Below, in pieces: positions 3,491-13,917 of a stretch of DNA of 64,000 nt (the first letter of the stretch is position 1; the number at the start of each line of letters is the position of its first letter). Below the pieces are notes generated by a model. That model saw only the letters and a list, made by a program, of their open reading frames with translations. It did not search any database and was not told the origin of the DNA. The DNA is from Pseudomonas beijingensis (GTDB lineage Bacteria > Pseudomonadota > Gammaproteobacteria > Pseudomonadales > Pseudomonadaceae), in assembly GCF_030687295.1 (NCBI RefSeq), contig NZ_CP117425.1, forward strand, positions 2,112,001 to 2,176,000, given 5' to 3'. A program made the position numbers and the translations under genes.

Positions 3491-3560
3491 TCAGTCAGCG
3501 AGCGTGAAAACGGCGCCGGCTTCTTAGGACAAAACCCGCCCCGCACAACTTAGATCCATT

Positions 3561-3842
3561 TCAATGGCTAATCGGGTCACCCACCGTCAACACAACCCGG
3601 CCAAACCTGGCGTTCTCATTTAGCGGCGTAATTGCTAATAGCTGATCGAGGCGAATCTCCTGGCGGCCATCTGTAGTTTCGACTTCGAGAAACTCTTCCC
3701 GCGTGGAAGCGGTCCGCGTGGTGATCGCCTGGGCTGTCAGTCGTTGGCCGTCAGTCAGTTCGATGTCCAGCGTGTAGCCGCACAGGCAAGCGATTTCCAG
3801 ATAGTCATGCAGGTCGCAGTGCAACGGTTTATAGGTATCCAT
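3561..3842 (-). CDS. rof: Rho-binding antiterminator family protein
   Basis: 93 residues matching the Rof/YaeO family in length and pattern: an N-terminal YKPLHCDLHDYLEIACL, then an Sm-like beta barrel with IELTDGQRLTAQA and EIRLDQLLAITPL. Known Rof binds Rho and inhibits termination; whether this one does is inferred. It begins one base after the stop of the DUF2024 gene, so the two are translationally linked, possibly in one transcript with the upstream aldolase and DapA-like genes. Confidence 0.82.
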   Translation of the reverse strand: MDTYKPLHCDLHDYLEIACLCGYTLDIELTDGQRLTAQAITTRTASTREEFLEVETTDGRQEIRLDQLLAITPLNENARFGRVVLTVGDPISH

Positions 3843-3843
3843 T

Positions 3844-4104
3844 TCAAACCTCGCAGCCTTGCAGTTTCAGGATGAAAAAACCTTGCCGGGCGATGGCCTC
3901 GACTACCTTGGGGTTGCTTGGCTCGACGTGGCAGAAACGGCAGTCGTTCAAGGTGATGTCCTGGTCTTCGATGCCCTGTTCGGCCAGGAAACGTCGCGCG
4001 CAGGCTTGGGCGAATTCCTGGTCGTTGCGGTCGATCAGCACGTCGAAGTGCAAGTATCGTCCGTCTTGGGTGCGTACGTGCGTGTCATAGACTTTGATGG
4101 TCAT
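3844..4104 (-). CDS. DUF2024 family protein
   Basis: 86 residues. The pattern VYDTHVRTQDGRYLHFDVL, a central CRFCH and the ending GFFILKLQGCEV fit the DUF2024 family, small soluble proteins of unknown function. Two cysteines in CRFCH and a C-terminal Cys could bind metal or form disulfides. It lies 78 bp after the DapA-like gene and one base before rof, all on the minus strand. Confidence 0.8.
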   Translation of the reverse strand: MTIKVYDTHVRTQDGRYLHFDVLIDRNDQEFAQACARRFLAEQGIEDQDITLNDCRFCHVEPSNPKVVEAIARQGFFILKLQGCEV

Positions 4105-8100: not shown

Positions 8101-8398
8101 CGCCTTGCGCCTTTGCCTACAACTACGCCAGAATCCGCCGGCTTGTTCGCCTGGGGTTGCGTCGGTAGTTTGAGTCCTGTCACTGCTCATCAGTGATCGG
8201 GTTTAGTCGCCCAGGGTGAAACAGGTTGTGCAAGGCGTCATCCAGTCAGGATTCCCATCCTGCACTTGATGGTGGCTGTGCGCAGGGCGTCCTCGGACGC
8301 GCCGGTTTCTTGTTTCCCCGGTCGACTAACCTGCGTACAGCTGCCTCCCATCGTTTAGTCGCGAGCGGGTGATGGCTCCAACTACAGGAAGCAAGACG
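8101..8398 (+). ncRNA. Candidate structured leader RNA, copy A (upstream of DUF6124 gene)
   Basis: About 300 nt repeated almost unchanged at 10436-10735. It contains a hairpin (CACTG-CTCAT-CAGTG, about 8181-8195), box 1 GGGTTTAGTCGCCC (8199-8212), a stem-loop at 8287-8300, box 2 GGTCGACTAACC (8320-8331) and box 3 CGTTTAGTCGCG (8352-8363). Box 2 can pair with box 1 (9 bp, one bulge, then 2 bp) or with box 3 (7 bp), but not both, as in attenuators and riboswitches. The ribosome-binding site (AGGA, 8386) lies 23 nt after box 3. That this region is transcribed is an inference. Confidence 0.5.
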
Positions 8399-8752
8399 AT
8401 GGCAAAAGATACGCCGAATCCTCCTGAAACGAATGAACACGTCTCCCGTGCTCAGTCTGCCCGCAACAAGAAAATCGATGACGCTGCTACGCGAGCGTTG
8501 GATTACTACCTGAAGCCTAAGAGCGAAACGTCTGATAAGTCGGACTCCATTTTTCGGATTGATCCGGGTGTGGATTCTGAGTGTTTGCTTGCGAATCTCA
8601 GTGAGAATTTGGCTTCGGCGAATGCCATGATCAGTGATTTGGCGTTTGATCTGGATGGGTCGAGGCGGCGGGTTGCGATGGGGATTTTGCAGGTGATTGA
8701 GGTGAGTGAGCTGTTGGCGAATCGGGCTTTGGATATTGTTGAGGTGAGGTAG
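8399..8752 (+). CDS. DUF6124-type small protein, copy A
   Basis: 117 residues: a Pro/charged N-terminus (NPPETNEHVSRAQSARNKK), DDAATRALDYYL, then a helical C-terminal half (LLANLSENLASANAMISDLA, then MGILQVIEVSELLANRALD). It matches a family common and multicopy in Pseudomonas, which I recall as DUF6124 (relative of DUF3077); no function is known. AGGA precedes the ATG by 9 bases. The second half is nearly identical in DNA to copy B (10736-11095), and from about 8580 the sequence is visibly less GC-rich. A terminator follows. Confidence 0.75.
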   Translation: MAKDTPNPPETNEHVSRAQSARNKKIDDAATRALDYYLKPKSETSDKSDSIFRIDPGVDSECLLANLSENLASANAMISDLAFDLDGSRRRVAMGILQVIEVSELLANRALDIVEVR

Positions 8753-8775: not shown

Positions 8776-8805
8776 AAAAAGGTCTTGTCTAACAAGGCCT
8801 TTTTC
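8776..8805. terminator. Bidirectional terminator
   Basis: AAAAAGGTCTTG - TCTAA - CAAGGCCTTTTT, a 12-bp stem with one G-U pair and A/T tracts on both sides. It serves the DUF6124 gene on the plus strand and the immunity gene on the minus strand. Confidence 0.8.
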
Positions 8806-8822: not shown

Positions 8823-9053
8823 TCATTCGAGGCAGACGATTTGAATGATGCGGTTATCACCATGAATGGTTGTGTGAGTCCACTCTTCTATGGTTTTTAT
8901 CTGCTGTGGTGACAGGTCGTAGACAAAGCAAAAATCTTCAGGCTTTGTCCAACCCATAAGTGCGGCCAATGGGTCCATGTATACGCTTGGGACTTCCACG
9001 GTCTGTATTAGCTCTTCGGTAGTCTGGTCAAAAATTTCAACGACGGGCTTCAT
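8823..9053 (-). CDS. Candidate bacteriocin immunity protein (DUF7683-like)
   Basis: 76 residues (MKPVVEIFDQTTEELIQTVE... ending QIVCLE), acidic, no signal peptide. The ATG overlaps the stop codon of the bacteriocin gene (ATGA), the usual arrangement of a nuclease bacteriocin with its cognate immunity protein. The N-terminal pattern V.E.FD..T..L resembles DUF7683 proteins near Pseudomonas pyocins; this is from memory. By position it should bind and neutralise the rRNase domain encoded just upstream. An upstream in-frame extension to 9173 is a shadow of the bacteriocin gene. Confidence 0.7.
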   Translation of the reverse strand: MKPVVEIFDQTTEELIQTVEVPSVYMDPLAALMGWTKPEDFCFVYDLSPQQIKTIEEWTHTTIHGDNRIIQIVCLE

Positions 9054-10243
9054 TTTTCTACTTTCCTTGTCGGATCGGCGGGTTTGGTTTGTTCCCCAGT
9101 TATTGGATCGAACTCGCCAAGGTGTTGACCTTGTTTTGTGTATAGCTCTACAGCGCCATGCTGTGAGTCCCATTCATAAATCTTGCCTTTACGATCCTTC
9201 CATCTCCGCCGTTTAACACCGCCGCCACGTACAAACGTTTTGGATGGAGCAATCTTAGCTTCTGGAAATGCTGGAAGCAGCGACGGGGGCTTGTAGTACT
9301 TATGATCCCCGGGAACACTCAAAATCACATAAACCGGCCGAATCCCCGAGTCCGCCGGGAACACCAGAATGAAATCCTTGTACTCCGGCGGATAGATTGG
9401 GTCGACGATGATGCTGTCGGCCACCGGCGTCGGCGGATAGATCCAAATAGGCGGCGCCTGGGGCGCCGATTCCAGCGCAGGAATGCCGAGGGTGTCAGCC
9501 GGATTGGTAGCCGGCGTCCAGATCAGTTCGATGCCATCCCCCAGGTCGGCAATGAACTGATCGGCTCGCGACGTGAACTGAACAACATCAACCATCTCCC
9601 AATCGGGATGCTGACCGGTATAGAAGCCATACCCCTTGAGACTGCCGTTGGCCTGCTGCTCGACGCTCAAGCGCATGCGGCTGCGGGCTTGCTTGAGGTC
9701 GCGTAACTGGTCTTCACTGTAAAGCGCGCTGTCGCCCAAATTGGACGGCCAGAGCAGGGCGACGATGCCGGTTAGCAGGGCAGCGCCGACGGTGCCGCCG
9801 GCAGCGGCAGCCGCGGAAGTTGCCGAACCGCCCAGCGCCAGCCGGCCCAAGTTAACCGGAACCGTGCCCGCACCAATCCGCTTGAGGGGGATGGCGCCGG
9901 ACGGGTCAGCGCTCCGACCGCCCAGCCACATGAGATCGCCGTACTGCTTGACCAGGTCCGCCGGGACGTAACCGTTGGGGTTGCTGTAATCGATGATGCC
10001 GTTGGGAAGTTTGCAGCTCTTGGCAAACACGCTTCCGGTTACGGTGGATAACGGCTTGTTAGCCACCGTGGCCCAACGCGCTTGTTCGTAGGCTGCTTGC
10101 CGGGCCAGCATGGCTTCATAAGCCTGCTGTAGCGCGTCGCGCTCGGCCAGTTCGCTGGCGCTCATGTCCCGATAAGTGAGGTGATGCCCGTCGCCGCCGG
10201 GCGGATTTCGGACCTGGGGAATGTCTTTTTTGCGTGTCGCCAC
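9050..10243 (-). CDS. S-type pyocin-like bacteriocin with colicin E3-type 16S rRNase domain
   Basis: 397 residues. The N-terminal ~110 residues are charged and helical (SASELAERDALQQAYEAMLA); a Gly/Ala-rich hydrophobic stretch lies at 134-166; the S-type pyocin translocation-like domain spans ~175-310; the cytotoxic domain is ~330-397. The last domain matches colicin E3: KIYEWDSQHG, GQHLGEFDP, and ADPTR near the end. Catalytic Asp359, His362 and Glu366 keep the E3 spacing (E3 Asp510, His513, Glu517), with Arg393 matching E3 Arg545. E3 cuts 16S rRNA at the decoding site. There is no obvious separate receptor-binding domain, so it is shorter than classical pyocins. The immunity gene follows with ATGA overlap. 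Confidence 0.88.
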   Translation of the reverse strand: MATRKKDIPQVRNPPGGDGHHLTYRDMSASELAERDALQQAYEAMLARQAAYEQARWATVANKPLSTVTGSVFAKSCKLPNGIIDYSNPNGYVPADLVKQYGDLMWLGGRSADPSGAIPLKRIGAGTVPVNLGRLALGGSATSAAAAAGGTVGAALLTGIVALLWPSNLGDSALYSEDQLRDLKQARSRMRLSVEQQANGSLKGYGFYTGQHPDWEMVDVVQFTSRADQFIADLGDGIELIWTPATNPADTLGIPALESAPQAPPIWIYPPTPVADSIIVDPIYPPEYKDFILVFPADSGIRPVYVILSVPGDHKYYKPPSLLPAFPEAKIAPSKTFVRGGGVKRRRWKDRKGKIYEWDSQHGAVELYTKQGQHLGEFDPITGEQTKPADPTRKVEK

Positions 10244-10435: not shown

Positions 10436-10735
10436 CGCCTTGCGCCTTTGCCTACAACTACGCCAGAATCCGCCGGCTTGTTCGCCTTGGGCTGCGTCGG
10501 TAGTTTGGGACCTGTCACTGCTCATCAGTGATCGGGTTTAGTCGCCCGTCGTTGCTAAGTCGCTCAAGCGTCCATCAGTCAGGTATCCCCATCCCTGCAC
10601 TCGATGGTGGCTGTGCGCAGGGCGCCTCCGGGTGCGCCGATTTCTTAGCTCGTCGGTCGACTAACCTGCGTACAGCTGCCTCCCAATCGTTTAGTCGCGA
10701 GCGGGAAGTAGCCTCAACCAAAGAGAGCTAAGGCT
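10436..10735 (+). ncRNA. Candidate structured leader RNA, copy B (upstream of second DUF6124 gene)
   Basis: Second copy of the leader at 8101-8398. Boxes 1, 2 and 3 (10534-10547, 10655-10666, 10688-10699) are identical to copy A, while linkers differ by substitutions and indels. The small stem at 10622-10635 keeps its pairing although the sequence changed: a U-A pair in copy A (8290/8297) is C-G here (10625/10632), and one G-C became G-U. Conserved boxes, divergent linkers and a compensatory change favour a functional RNA fold. Confidence 0.5.
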
Positions 10736-11095
10736 ATGGTCAAAATTACACCGAATCCTCCAGTTACAGATGAACCCACATCCCGTGCCAAATCGGTTCG
10801 CAATAAAAAGCTCGACGACGCGGCCACCCGCGCGTTGGATTACTACCTGAAACCCAAGCCTAAGAGCGAAACGTCTGACAAGTCCGACTCCATTTTACGG
10901 ATTGATCCGGCTGTGGATTCTGAGTGTTTGCTGGCGAATCTCAGTGAGAATCTGGCTTCGGCCAATGCCATGATCAGTGATTTGGCGTTTGATCTGGATG
11001 GGTCGCGACGGCGTGTTGCGATGGGGATTTTACAGGTGATTGAGGTGAGTGAGCTGTTGGCGAATCGGGCTTTGGATATTGTTGAGGTGAGGTAG
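10736..11095 (+). CDS. DUF6124-type small protein, copy B
   Basis: 119 residues, differing from copy A mainly in the first 50 residues (VTDEPTSRAKSVRNKKLDD and an extra PK in the linker KPKPKSE). The C-terminal part is the same protein. Function is unknown. A leader-plus-gene unit duplicated around the bacteriocin cassette suggests a segmental duplication or an insertion between pre-existing copies. A strong intrinsic terminator follows. Confidence 0.75.
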   Translation: MVKITPNPPVTDEPTSRAKSVRNKKLDDAATRALDYYLKPKPKSETSDKSDSILRIDPAVDSECLLANLSENLASANAMISDLAFDLDGSRRRVAMGILQVIEVSELLANRALDIVEVR

Positions 11096-11126: not shown

Positions 11127-11154
11127 AAAGGTCTTGCTCAGCAAGACCTTTTTT
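11127..11154 (+). terminator. Intrinsic terminator after DUF6124 copy B
   Basis: AAAGGTCTTGC and GCAAGACCTTT form a perfect stem with a 2-4 base loop followed by TTT. Confidence 0.85.
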
Positions 11155-11338: not shown

Positions 11339-12898
11339 ATGCACACCATAAGGAAAGTGGTAATTCAGAACTTCAAGAAATTCAAAACTCTCACGCTCGA
11401 TTTTGATTCTGAGAAGAATGTGCTGATTGGCAATAATGAGGTAGGAAAAAGTAGCATTTTGCTCGCTCTAGACCTCGCGCTCGGAGGGAGTCGCAACCGC
11501 ATTGAAACTCTGGGTGCAGAAACACTGCTCAACAAGGATTCTGTGAGCATCTTTCTTGCGGGGGAGAAGAGCTTCGCGAAACTACCTGAGCTGATAGTCG
11601 ACGTTTTTCTAGAGGAGGGGGATGACGAAAACCTCTATGGAACCAACAATGTTCACCAGCAAAAGACTGACGGTCTGCGCATGATCCTTGCGGTTATGGC
11701 CGAGTATGGCGAGGCGGTGCAAGCAATCTTGGCTGACGATAAACCGAACTTCCCATTCGAATATTACGCAGTGCGATTTGAAACGTTCGCCGGCAGACCC
11801 TACGCAGCATTCAACCGCCCCTTTAAGCACATGATGCTGGACGGTTCCCGTATCGATGGCGATTACGCATCTCGTGAATACACCCGAGCTGTGTACGCTT
11901 TCAACGCCCCCGTCGAAGACCGCTATAAACTTGAAAACCTGTATCGCCAAGGCAAGCATGCGTTTACGGGGCAGCATCTAGCAGGCCTCAACGCAGACCT
12001 TCCCGCGTATCAGTTTGACGTGCGTACTAGTGTCCGGTCGAATCTGGAAACCGACCTAATCATCACAGAAGACAATATTCCGCTTGAGCACCACGGGAAA
12101 GGAAGACAGTGCTTCATTAAAACCGAATTTGCGTTGAGCAAGCACAAGCAAGGTGGCTTAGATGTAATGCTCTTGGAGGAGCCTGAAAACCATCTCAGCC
12201 ATTCCTCTATGAAAGCACTCGTCGCAAAGCTGGAGGAGAACAAGAGCACACAGCTTTTCATCGCAACGCACAGCAGTCATATTTGTTCAAGGCTTGATCT
12301 TCGGCATGCCCTTTTGATCGGCCCGAATGCTGCTGGCTCACTTAAGGCTCTATCAGCCGAGACCGCAGAATTCTTCATGAAGGCCCCGGACAATAATGTT
12401 TTGGAGTTTGCGCTTTCGAAGAAGGTGATCTTGGTTGAAGGTGATGCCGAATTCATCCTTGTGGAGGATTTCTATAAGCAATGTACAAACGGGCGTCTAC
12501 CGCAGGCAGATGACGTCCATATAATCTCAATCGGCGGCACCAGCTTCAAAAGGTACATGGAGCTAGCCAACCTACTTGGAATTCGGGTAGCAGCCATACG
12601 GGACAATGACAAGAATTATCAGAAAAACTGCGTAGAAAACTACATTGACTTCACTTCGGATAATGCCAAAGTCTTTGCCGATAGAGACGATGACCGTTCA
12701 ACCTTCGAAATAGGCTTGCATAACGACAACCTGGAAACCTGCAAGACCGTCTTCGGGCCAGGCCGAAAAACCCTTTCACCTTTGGAGTACATGCTAGCCA
12801 ACAAAGCAGAAGCTGCGTTTGAGTTGCTTAAGGGAAAACCCGGTGAACTCACCGTTCCAGCCTACATCGTGGAGGCAATCAAATGGATAAACGAGTGA
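11339..12898 (+). CDS. OLD-family ATP-dependent endonuclease (GajA-like)
   Basis: 519 residues. The N-terminal SMC/ABC-type ATPase has Walker A GNNEVGKSS (31-39), a degenerate signature region (~250-258), Walker B VMLLEEPENHLS (276-287) and the switch histidine in ATHSSH (309-314). The C-terminal Toprim domain has VILVEGDAE (363-371, Glu367) and RDND (421-424), as in class 2 OLD nucleases such as GajA of the Gabija anti-phage system. AGGAG lies eight bases before the ATG. The next gene, a UvrD-like helicase, overlaps by 16 bases, the Gabija arrangement. Base composition is clearly AT-richer than the core genes, suggesting horizontal acquisition. Confidence 0.85.
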   Translation: MHTIRKVVIQNFKKFKTLTLDFDSEKNVLIGNNEVGKSSILLALDLALGGSRNRIETLGAETLLNKDSVSIFLAGEKSFAKLPELIVDVFLEEGDDENLYGTNNVHQQKTDGLRMILAVMAEYGEAVQAILADDKPNFPFEYYAVRFETFAGRPYAAFNRPFKHMMLDGSRIDGDYASREYTRAVYAFNAPVEDRYKLENLYRQGKHAFTGQHLAGLNADLPAYQFDVRTSVRSNLETDLIITEDNIPLEHHGKGRQCFIKTEFALSKHKQGGLDVMLLEEPENHLSHSSMKALVAKLEENKSTQLFIATHSSHICSRLDLRHALLIGPNAAGSLKALSAETAEFFMKAPDNNVLEFALSKKVILVEGDAEFILVEDFYKQCTNGRLPQADDVHIISIGGTSFKRYMELANLLGIRVAAIRDNDKNYQKNCVENYIDFTSDNAKVFADRDDDRSTFEIGLHNDNLETCKTVFGPGRKTLSPLEYMLANKAEAAFELLKGKPGELTVPAYIVEAIKWINE

Positions 12899-13917
12899 TC
12901 TTCGCTGTAGCAGGATCAGGCAAGACAACCCTGCTGGTGAACCGCCTGAGCCTGGAAAAGCGCGCGCTGATTGTCACCTATACGGAAAACAACTACCGCC
13001 ACTTGCGTGATAGCATCATTAAACGGTTCGGTCATGTCCCCAAAAATATAAACGTCCTTAGCTATTTCACATTCCTCCATAGCTTTTGCTATCGGCCCTT
13101 GCTGCAGATGCGCTTGGAAACTAGAGGGATTAGCTTCCGAATGCCGCACCCTCGAACATTGAAAATCAAACGCGATGATATGGCTTACTACACTAATAAA
13201 AGTGGAAATCTATATCACAACCGCTTAGCAAAACTTGTTGAGATCGAAGGGGCAATTCCTGACGTGATAGCGCGAATAGAGCGCTTTTATGATGAGTTTT
13301 ATGTCGACGAAGTCCAAGACCTAGCGGGCCATGACTTCAATCTGATGATGGCATTAGCGAAAGCTAAGATTGAAATTATGTTTGTAGGCGACTTCTACCA
13401 GCACACCTTCGACACTAGCCGTGATGGGAACGTGAATAGCTCTCTACACGTTGACATCGGCAAGTACGAAAAACATTTTCAAAAGGCGGGTATCACCGTC
13501 GACAAGGAGACATTGAGTCGGAGCTGGAGATGTGGTGTGACTGTGTGCGATTTTATTCGCGCACATTTGCAGATTGATATACAGTCACAACATACCTATG
13601 AAACCGAAATCATACCTCTGACCAATCAAGCGGATGCTAACACCGTGCATGCGGACGCTAGCGTTGTAAAGTTGTTCTATAAAGAGCATTACAAGTACGG
13701 GTGTGTGTCTAACAACTGGGGCGCCTGTAAGGGGCTAGATAACTATAACGATGTGTGCGTTGTACTGGGTAATAGTCATTGGAAGATCTATGAAAATTCC
13801 TCGCTTGATGCACTCCCCCCACAGACAAAAAACAAACTATATGTAGCATTTTCACGGGCGCGTGGGAGGCTGTATCTAGTGCCTGAAAAGTTGTTCAAAA
13901 CGTTCAAGGCTGTTTAA
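12883..13917 (+). CDS. Compact UvrD-like SF1 helicase (GajB-like)
   Basis: 344 residues holding all core SF1A motifs: Walker A AGSGKTT (10-16), motif II VDEVQD (141-146), motif III VGDFYQ (168-173), an arginine motif SRSWRCG (~212-218), motif V-like ACKGLDNYNDVCVV (281-294) and motif VI VAFSRARGRL (321-330). GajB helicases are near 490 residues, so the accessory 1B/2B domains seem reduced or missing. It starts inside the end of the OLD gene, so the pair is translated together. It probably acts with the nuclease in phage defence; this is an inference from family and context. Confidence 0.82.
   Translation: MDKRVIFAVAGSGKTTLLVNRLSLEKRALIVTYTENNYRHLRDSIIKRFGHVPKNINVLSYFTFLHSFCYRPLLQMRLETRGISFRMPHPRTLKIKRDDMAYYTNKSGNLYHNRLAKLVEIEGAIPDVIARIERFYDEFYVDEVQDLAGHDFNLMMALAKAKIEIMFVGDFYQHTFDTSRDGNVNSSLHVDIGKYEKHFQKAGITVDKETLSRSWRCGVTVCDFIRAHLQIDIQSQHTYETEIIPLTNQADANTVHADASVVKLFYKEHYKYGCVSNNWGACKGLDNYNDVCVVLGNSHWKIYENSSLDALPPQTKNKLYVAFSRARGRLYLVPEKLFKTFKAV

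Follow-up and report, generated by a model that had tools for sequence, protein, structure and literature searches.

Two leaders of DUF6124 genes in Pseudomonas beijingensis are C4 antisense RNA modules of the phage P1/P7 type

Introduction

C4 is known as an immunity RNA of phages. The record of phage P1 annotates two pairs of sites: a1 and b1 ahead of c4, a2 and b2 in the interval from c4 to the gene icd. The passages on P1 in PMC5320573 and PMC8198154 present pairing of C4 with a2 and b2 as the basis for a block of the ribosome-binding site. In Salmonella Gifsy-1, according to sections of PMC4825925, IsrK (RF01394) is a short leader RNA which activates translation in trans; segments of the IsrK/orf45-anrP leader pair alternatively with a downstream segment, the control is one of translation, and a processed RNA is located downstream of IsrK. 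The latter traits resemble those seen or predicted in the leaders described below. Satellite phage P4 (seqA - CI RNA - seqC), as described in part of the same source, likewise has an antisense RNA which is released from the leader in which it lies and pairs with one upstream and one downstream site. We set P4 apart on this description, as CI acts on transcription termination whereas in our case the second site is a Shine-Dalgarno region. Similarly, a section of PMC5320573 reports 21 chromosomal sequences with a C4-like core in a single genome of Acinetobacter baumannii, the Group 1 sRNAs; read coverage suggests GGW processing in most of the 15 full-length ones. Their targets are left open in that section, whereas here the paired sites reside in the same leader and a target gene can be named.

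C4 in Pseudomonadales is not new. A passage of PMC5320573 ascribes the prediction to Weinberg 2010, a table of which (PMC2864571) lists C4 and c4-a1b1, and parts of PMC12189769 and PMC4603805 list C4 in Xylella and Burkholderia. The RNA family is already known. Its tie to the protein families DUF6124 and DUF3077 was not found in the literature searched, which did not extend to the Weinberg supplement and most subscription papers; an earlier notice is possible. Within this literature DUF6124/DUF3077 surfaced solely in a passage about a mutation (part of PMC9630843).

Results

The window, i.e. the whole stretch of 64,000 nucleotides from P. beijingensis that was analysed, contains two similar leaders, copy A (8101-8398) and copy B (near 10436-10735), each in front of a DUF6124 gene. 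The initial annotation had described three boxes which are identical in both copies and separated by varying linkers, and put the leader forward as a candidate for a new class of cis-regulatory RNA operating by the logic of attenuators and riboswitches. All three were confirmed at the positions given: in copies A and B, respectively, box 1 spans 8199-8212 and 10534-10547, box 2 spans 8320-8331 and 10655-10666, and box 3 spans 8352-8363 and 10688-10699. Identity of the boxes is by itself weak evidence, since 250 of 311 aligned columns (80%) are identical between the two leaders.

An Rfam search of the window matched C4 antisense RNA, RF01695, to both leaders with 76.2 bits in copy A and 70.7 bits in copy B (cut-off 45). 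RF03163 (c4-a1b1) matched weakly at the expected place upstream in both, i.e. at 8165-8217 in copy A (20.9 bits, E 0.0046) and at 10500-10552 in copy B (31.4 bits, E 3e-6), each below the cut-off of 46.7. RF01394 (isrK) was far under its cut-off of 50 bits: copy B reached 16, and for copy A no match was listed up to E 1; unlike IsrK, the window copies also lack a T run before C4. Both leaders are complete C4 antisense modules of the phage P1/P7 type. The proposed new class is not supported: Rfam already contains the central RF01695, over cut-off, and the upstream RF03163, below cut-off. The components are listed in Table 1.

Table 1. Components of the two C4-DUF6124 modules in the window (positions are those of the window)
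Feature	Copy	Position	Strand	Remarks
Upstream element, putative promoter	A	8103..8177	+	75 nt
Promoter hexamers	A	8143-8148, 8166-8171	+	-35-like TTGTTC, 17 nt, -10-like TAGTTT; chosen by eye
5' hairpin of leader, c4-a1b1 type	A	8179..8197	+	within weak RF03163 match
a1 target site, core of box 1	A	8203..8209	+	TTAGTCG, exact a' complement
b1 target site	A	8217..8225	+	pairs with b', -8.6 kcal/mol
C4 antisense RNA	A	8265..8351	+	RF01695 match
b' loop of C4	A	8306..8317	+	P3 loop TTTCTTGTTTCC
a' of C4, core of box 2	A	8323..8329	+	CGACTAA, single-stranded in C4 fold
a2 target site, core of box 3	A	8355..8361	+	TTAGTCG, exact a' complement
b2 target site on Shine-Dalgarno region	A	8387..8396	+	GGAAGCAAGA with b', -13.5 kcal/mol
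DUF6124 gene	A	8399..8752	+	117 aa; PF19619 E 9.6e-28
Terminator-like hairpin 3' of gene	A	8778..8804	+	by eye, AAAGGTCTTG...CAAGGCCTTTTT; absent from terminator scan
Upstream element, putative promoter	B	10438..10507	+	TTGTTC 10478-10483, TAGTTT 10501-10506; by eye
5' hairpin of leader	B	10514..10532	+	within RF03163 match, below cut-off
a1, core of box 1	B	10538..10544	+	inside RF03163 match
b1	B	10553..10559	+	pairs with b', -7.6 kcal/mol
C4 antisense RNA	B	10600..10686	+	RF01695 match
b' loop	B	10641..10652	+	TTTCTTAGCTCG
a', core of box 2	B	10658..10664	+	
a2, core of box 3	B	10691..10697	+	
b2 on Shine-Dalgarno region	B	10725..10732	+	GAGCTAAG with own b', -13.3 kcal/mol
DUF6124 gene	B	10736..11095	+	119 aa; PF19619 E 4.8e-26
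Terminator-like hairpin 3' of gene	B	11127..11154	+	by eye; absent from terminator scan

The three boxes find their place in the C4 architecture: box 1 is a1, box 2 is a' plus flank, and box 3 is a2. When the Rfam structure was mapped on copy A, box 2 comprised the end of P3, the single-stranded a' and the start of the 3' strand of helix P1. A 5-bp stem in which the initial annotation had noted a compensatory change (U-A at 8290/8297 versus C-G at 10625/10632) is C4 helix P2, and the change is real. Folded alone, the C4 segment of copy A (8270-8347) had -45.8 kcal/mol with a z of -5.7. Over 29 paralogues of this genome the three-helix fold P1/P2/P3 was paired in 95.7% of 783 cells with two-sided changes in 17 of 27 pairs. 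None of 500 shuffles reached either value, and versions slid by 1-3 columns gave at most 45.1% and 7 pairs. P3 was the weakest helix (86.2% of cells paired, two-sided changes in 1 of 5 pairs). In both window copies U-U takes the place of the closing pair of P1, a mismatch which counts against the C4 assignment. The best fold of the full leader was not the same in the two copies. In copy A it paired a1b1 with a'b' in place of the C4 fold (-96 kcal/mol, z -3.5); in copy B it was the C4 fold (-91.7 kcal/mol, z -3.7).

With phage P1/P7 C4 (RF01695 and RF03163) the leaders share the fold and the order a1 b1 - C4 - a2 b2 - start codon. The start codon follows the C4 match by 48 nt in P1 as well as in copy A and by 50 nt in copy B, and a similar 5' hairpin is situated ahead of a1. 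Where a1 could be recognised (126 loci), such a stem of at least 7 pairs was present in 102, compared to 81 of 630 shuffled stretches. Two differences stand out beside the low RF03163 scores in the window: the target is icd/ant in the phages and DUF6124 here, and here many copies reside on a bacterial chromosome. Further upstream, the element of copy B is 97% identical to that of copy A over 70 of its 75 bases. The copy A element matches the genome at 15 places, of which 13 coincide with C4 modules by position; one promoter-like copy (genome 21912-21960) stands beside an ORF without a C4 found nearby. In a promoter scan none passed at either leader. On the + strand of the leaders the sole hairpin in a terminator scan was at P2 (8286-8303 and 10621-10638).

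Between the two C4-DUF6124 modules an S-type pyocin-like gene with Pyocin_S and Cytotoxic domains is located on the minus strand (8823-10243), accompanied by a small DUF7683 gene which may provide immunity to it. Directly 3' of the copy B module is a Gabija-like defence pair of two genes (11339-13914), GajA (PDLC00102, E 1.6e-107) and GajB (PDLC00148, E 8.3e-50).

The pairing of the C4 segments with their presumed targets was analysed in the 29 C4 loci of this genome and in 129 loci from elsewhere. The latter are every over-cut-off C4 of 18 single-contig genomes picked for modest counts; two matches under cut-off are left out and C4-rich genomes are outside the set. The complementarity of box 2 to box 1 and to box 3, as claimed initially, is borne out: in the 29 loci it exceeded chance when own and swapped pairs were compared. 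A second pairing had been missed, that of the C4 loop b' with b2. The linkers do vary, as the initial annotation had it, yet they contain the b1, b' and b2 sites and these vary in a compensated way. Because b' and b2 were altered jointly between copies A and B, part of the supposed linker carries the clearest covariation. The b'/b2 duplexes of the window copies had -13.5 (A) and -13.3 kcal/mol (B) with their own partners, and -4.1 (b' of A with b2 of B) and -5.5 kcal/mol when crossed.

The same was observed over all loci. In the 29 loci own duplex energies of a' and b' with the upstream and downstream stretches surpassed those of swapped pairs, and none of 20000 permutations reached the observed mean. 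With a stricter ungapped score none of 5000 permutations did so in the 29 loci and none of 5000 in the 129 loci; by this score a control stretch 200-290 nt downstream was devoid of a pairing signal in both sets. Next, exact runs of at least 6 Watson-Crick pairs were counted, with swapped pairs as a control (8-11% positive). For a'-a2 such runs were present in 29/29 (swapped 9%) and 123/129 loci, for a'-a1 in 28/29 (swapped 11%) and 86/129 (absent in 1 and 43, respectively). For b'-b2 they were present in 23/29 and 103/129 (absent in 6 and 26), for b'-b1 in 23/29 and 59/129 (absent in 6 and 70). Among the 133 loci in which an ORF starts less than 62 nt from C4, a b'-b2 run of at least 7 pairs, with G-U allowed and between 18 nt after C4 and the start codon, was detected in 118. 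In 76 to 99 of these 118 it covered the positions -15 to -8 before the start codon.

When a' and b' were combined, 26 of 29 modules of this genome had their own leader as the single best target within it, as did 118 of 128 modules in their respective genomes. In this genome 16 variants of a' and 29 of b' exist, i.e. all 29 b' loops differ; the 129 loci have 53 and 114 variants. Judged by complementarity, most C4 modules carry a pairing code of their own. The sequences of the paired sites diverge, yet most loci preserve their complementarity, which points to selection. Covariation among homologous leaders was evident in the C4 fold over the 29 paralogues and in the a' and b' pairing over the 29 and 129 loci.

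On the single 6.45 Mb contig of the source genome at least 29 C4 matches were detected, all above cut-off, with 150 of 2202 first-look candidates scored. PF19619 (DUF6124) gave 24 matches, two of them adjoining, hence 23 loci, and PF11275 (DUF3077) gave one. When positions were compared by eye, 22 of the 29 C4 RNAs preceded a DUF6124 (21; 175-221 nt to the domain) or DUF3077 (one) match on the same strand; of these 22 matches one is partial (L020) and one split (L023). At five loci (L006, L007, L009, L011, L014) C4 is ahead of small proteins without a significant Pfam match, which join the main protein cluster at E 1e-3 and not at 1e-4. At L015 a short ORF follows C4, and at L001 no ORF was found. 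Two DUF6124 loci of this genome are without C4, which counts against the mechanism proposed below.

Pseudomonas genomes commonly carry many C4 modules, most often over the DUF6124/DUF3077 families. C4 was detected in at least 138 of 149 genomes of the genus (137 over cut-off), with a median of at least 13 matches per genome; 91 genomes had at least 10 and 34 at least 27. Among 228 other genomes drawn from the class at least 11 had C4. All these counts are lower bounds because no more than 27 candidates per genome were scored in the genus survey and no more than 18 in the class survey. In the 18 genomes, 81 of the 129 C4 RNAs were followed on the same strand, within 1 kb, by a DUF6124/DUF3077 match, and none had one on the upstream side or on the opposite strand. 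Conversely, C4 was upstream of 81 of 108 DUF6124/DUF3077 loci. Here matches were accepted to E 0.001, and 6 of 67 DUF6124 rows are below the curated cut-off. Taking all 158 C4 loci, an ORF of at least 30 codons started 34-66 nt after C4 in 144; 108 of these 144 downstream proteins formed one cluster at E 1e-5, and a second cluster had 13 members. In one genome (G104, 1541708-1542194) three tandem C4 RNAs were situated within 500 bases.

A search from the protein side gave a concordant result. C4 was just upstream in 78 of 79 genome loci, the exception being L260, and all 79 were from Pseudomonas; the loci are the closest 79 of 253 relatives, and the figure is therefore biased to near kin. In viral contigs (IMG/VR; best 80 of 122) a same-strand C4 was upstream in 77 of 80 loci. 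Of the exceptions, L290 and L323 have no or almost no upstream sequence, and at L346 the C4 is on the other strand. Many of the viral-contig loci are located at the end of their contig and might represent flanking host DNA. At L301 the C4-DUF6124 module has prophage tail genes on one side and the tail sheath gene on the other, a position at which added genes are common in such phages. At six viral-contig loci (L319, L333, L338, L343, L344, L345) the matched DUF6124 gene lies 500-600 nt after C4; at L344 a first DUF6124 gene (3522-3887) is interposed.

At 17 C4 loci outside the genus a'-a2 runs of at least 6 were present in 15 (swapped 10%) and b'-b2 runs in 14 (swapped 16%). Of the 16 proteins following these C4 RNAs 10 were scanned; the clear Pfam matches were Rha, Bro-N (two) and SymE. 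The SymE gene (L359; PF08845, E 7.4e-13) is preceded by C4 at 1501-1583 and is possibly a type I toxin controlled by C4. The layout is retained outside the genus with other targets; hence the module is of a general kind, and what is peculiar to the genus is the family of its targets.

The DUF6124 proteins of the window, 117 to 119 amino acids long, have a confident C-terminal helical hairpin, and the structure alignment comprised these two and 57 of 159 loci from the genome and viral-contig sets. No sequence relative of DUF6124 was found in the PDB, and a PADLOC search was without a match.

Discussion

The above data make it very probable that C4 blocks translation of the gene behind it, in a module a1b1 - C4 - a2b2 - DUF6124 gene in which DUF6124 has taken the place of icd/ant. 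A single transcript would start from a promoter near 8143-8171. Its C4 segment would fold into P1, P2 and P3 and be cut from the leader, probably by RNase P. By analogy to P1 the processed 5' end is predicted at G8271 in copy A; a GGT, discerned by eye, which corresponds to the RNase P processing motif GGW, is present at 8271 and at 10606. The freed C4 would then pair a' with a2 and b' with b2. Because the b2 site, to which b' is complementary, coincides with the Shine-Dalgarno region of the DUF6124 gene, translation would be blocked. The complementarity of a1b1 to the same a'b' suggests that it may compete with or relieve the block, either by mopping up C4 or by an IsrK-like action. Since modules vary in b' and b2, a given C4 is expected to recognise chiefly the mRNA of its own module. 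That the leader controls the DUF6124 genes, as proposed in the initial annotation, is likely, and a structured leader with three competing segments is supported. Counting against this mechanism, 48 of the 129 C4 RNAs in the 18 genomes lack a downstream DUF6124/DUF3077 match in Pfam.

Could the leader operate purely in cis, without a free C4? The nascent leader would then choose, like an attenuator, between a1b1:a'b' (on) and a'b':a2b2 or the C4 fold (off). The preference of the copy A leader for a1b1:a'b' and of copy B for C4 fits such a switch, and the Gifsy-1 IsrK leader takes two conformations on native gels, as a section of PMC4825925 describes. Against it, C4 alone is very stable (z -5.7) and its helices covary, as expected for an RNA which acts after excision; furthermore, among the 129 loci pairing with a1 was lost more often than with a2 (86 versus 123 retained). 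We regard a pure cis switch as rather unlikely. A new class of riboswitch or attenuator for DUF6124 genes, on the other hand, is hardly tenable. Three competing segments do exist; yet the element is already in Rfam as RF01695, and its order is that annotated in phage P1. The segments vary freely and stay complementary, with 16 variants of a' and 29 of b' in this genome, which is compatible with antisense recognition and not with a conserved ligand pocket. Further, neither copy has a T run after box 3, hence the helix of boxes 2 and 3 does not constitute an intrinsic terminator.

What the DUF6124 protein does is a separate question, and an answer in terms of a type I toxin-antitoxin-like pair, with DUF6124 as a growth inhibitor and C4 as RNA antitoxin, would be compatible with the translation block by C4. 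The layout is that of a small gene silenced by an antisense RNA that is complementary at its ribosome-binding site, a SymE toxin gene follows one of the C4 RNAs outside the genus, and P1 icd is annotated in the record as a cell-division inhibitor. However, DUF6124 has neither a PADLOC match nor a sequence relative in the PDB, its Pfam match is to DUF6124 alone, and a profile match to P1 Icd is lacking. A growth inhibitor is thus possible, if doubtful. In more general terms, the SymE target elsewhere and the silencing layout render a toxin-antitoxin-like or phage-related role of DUF6124 plausible. Alternatively, the modules might be decaying remnants of prophages without present function. C4 is a phage element, C4 and DUF6124 occur together in IMG/VR contigs, one copy sits amid tail genes, and some modules look broken, e.g. 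those with a partial match (L020), a split match (L023) or no ORF (L001). Yet the complementarity of the paired sites has been retained in most loci despite divergence, and decay is improbable.

The proposed translation block by C4 leads to a wider picture, which we present tentatively and consider unlikely as a whole. Pseudomonas chromosomes and prophages would exchange many privately coded C4 modules that silence small helical DUF6124/DUF3077 proteins, and chromosome-wide immunity groups, toxin-antitoxin-like or anti-phage, would have been derived from one phage RNA. If true, a module which arrives with a new code would be expressed until its own C4 accumulates; one whose code is already resident would be silenced immediately.

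In the 19 genomes examined closely, most C4 RNAs (22 of 29 here, 81 of 129 in the 18 others) precede genes of two families that are uncharacterised. This provides a first testable handle on the DUF6124/DUF3077 proteins, and it offers antisense switches that form a natural orthogonal set. It also suggests that the targets of chromosomal C4-like RNAs, e.g. those of Acinetobacter, may be sought in their own leaders.
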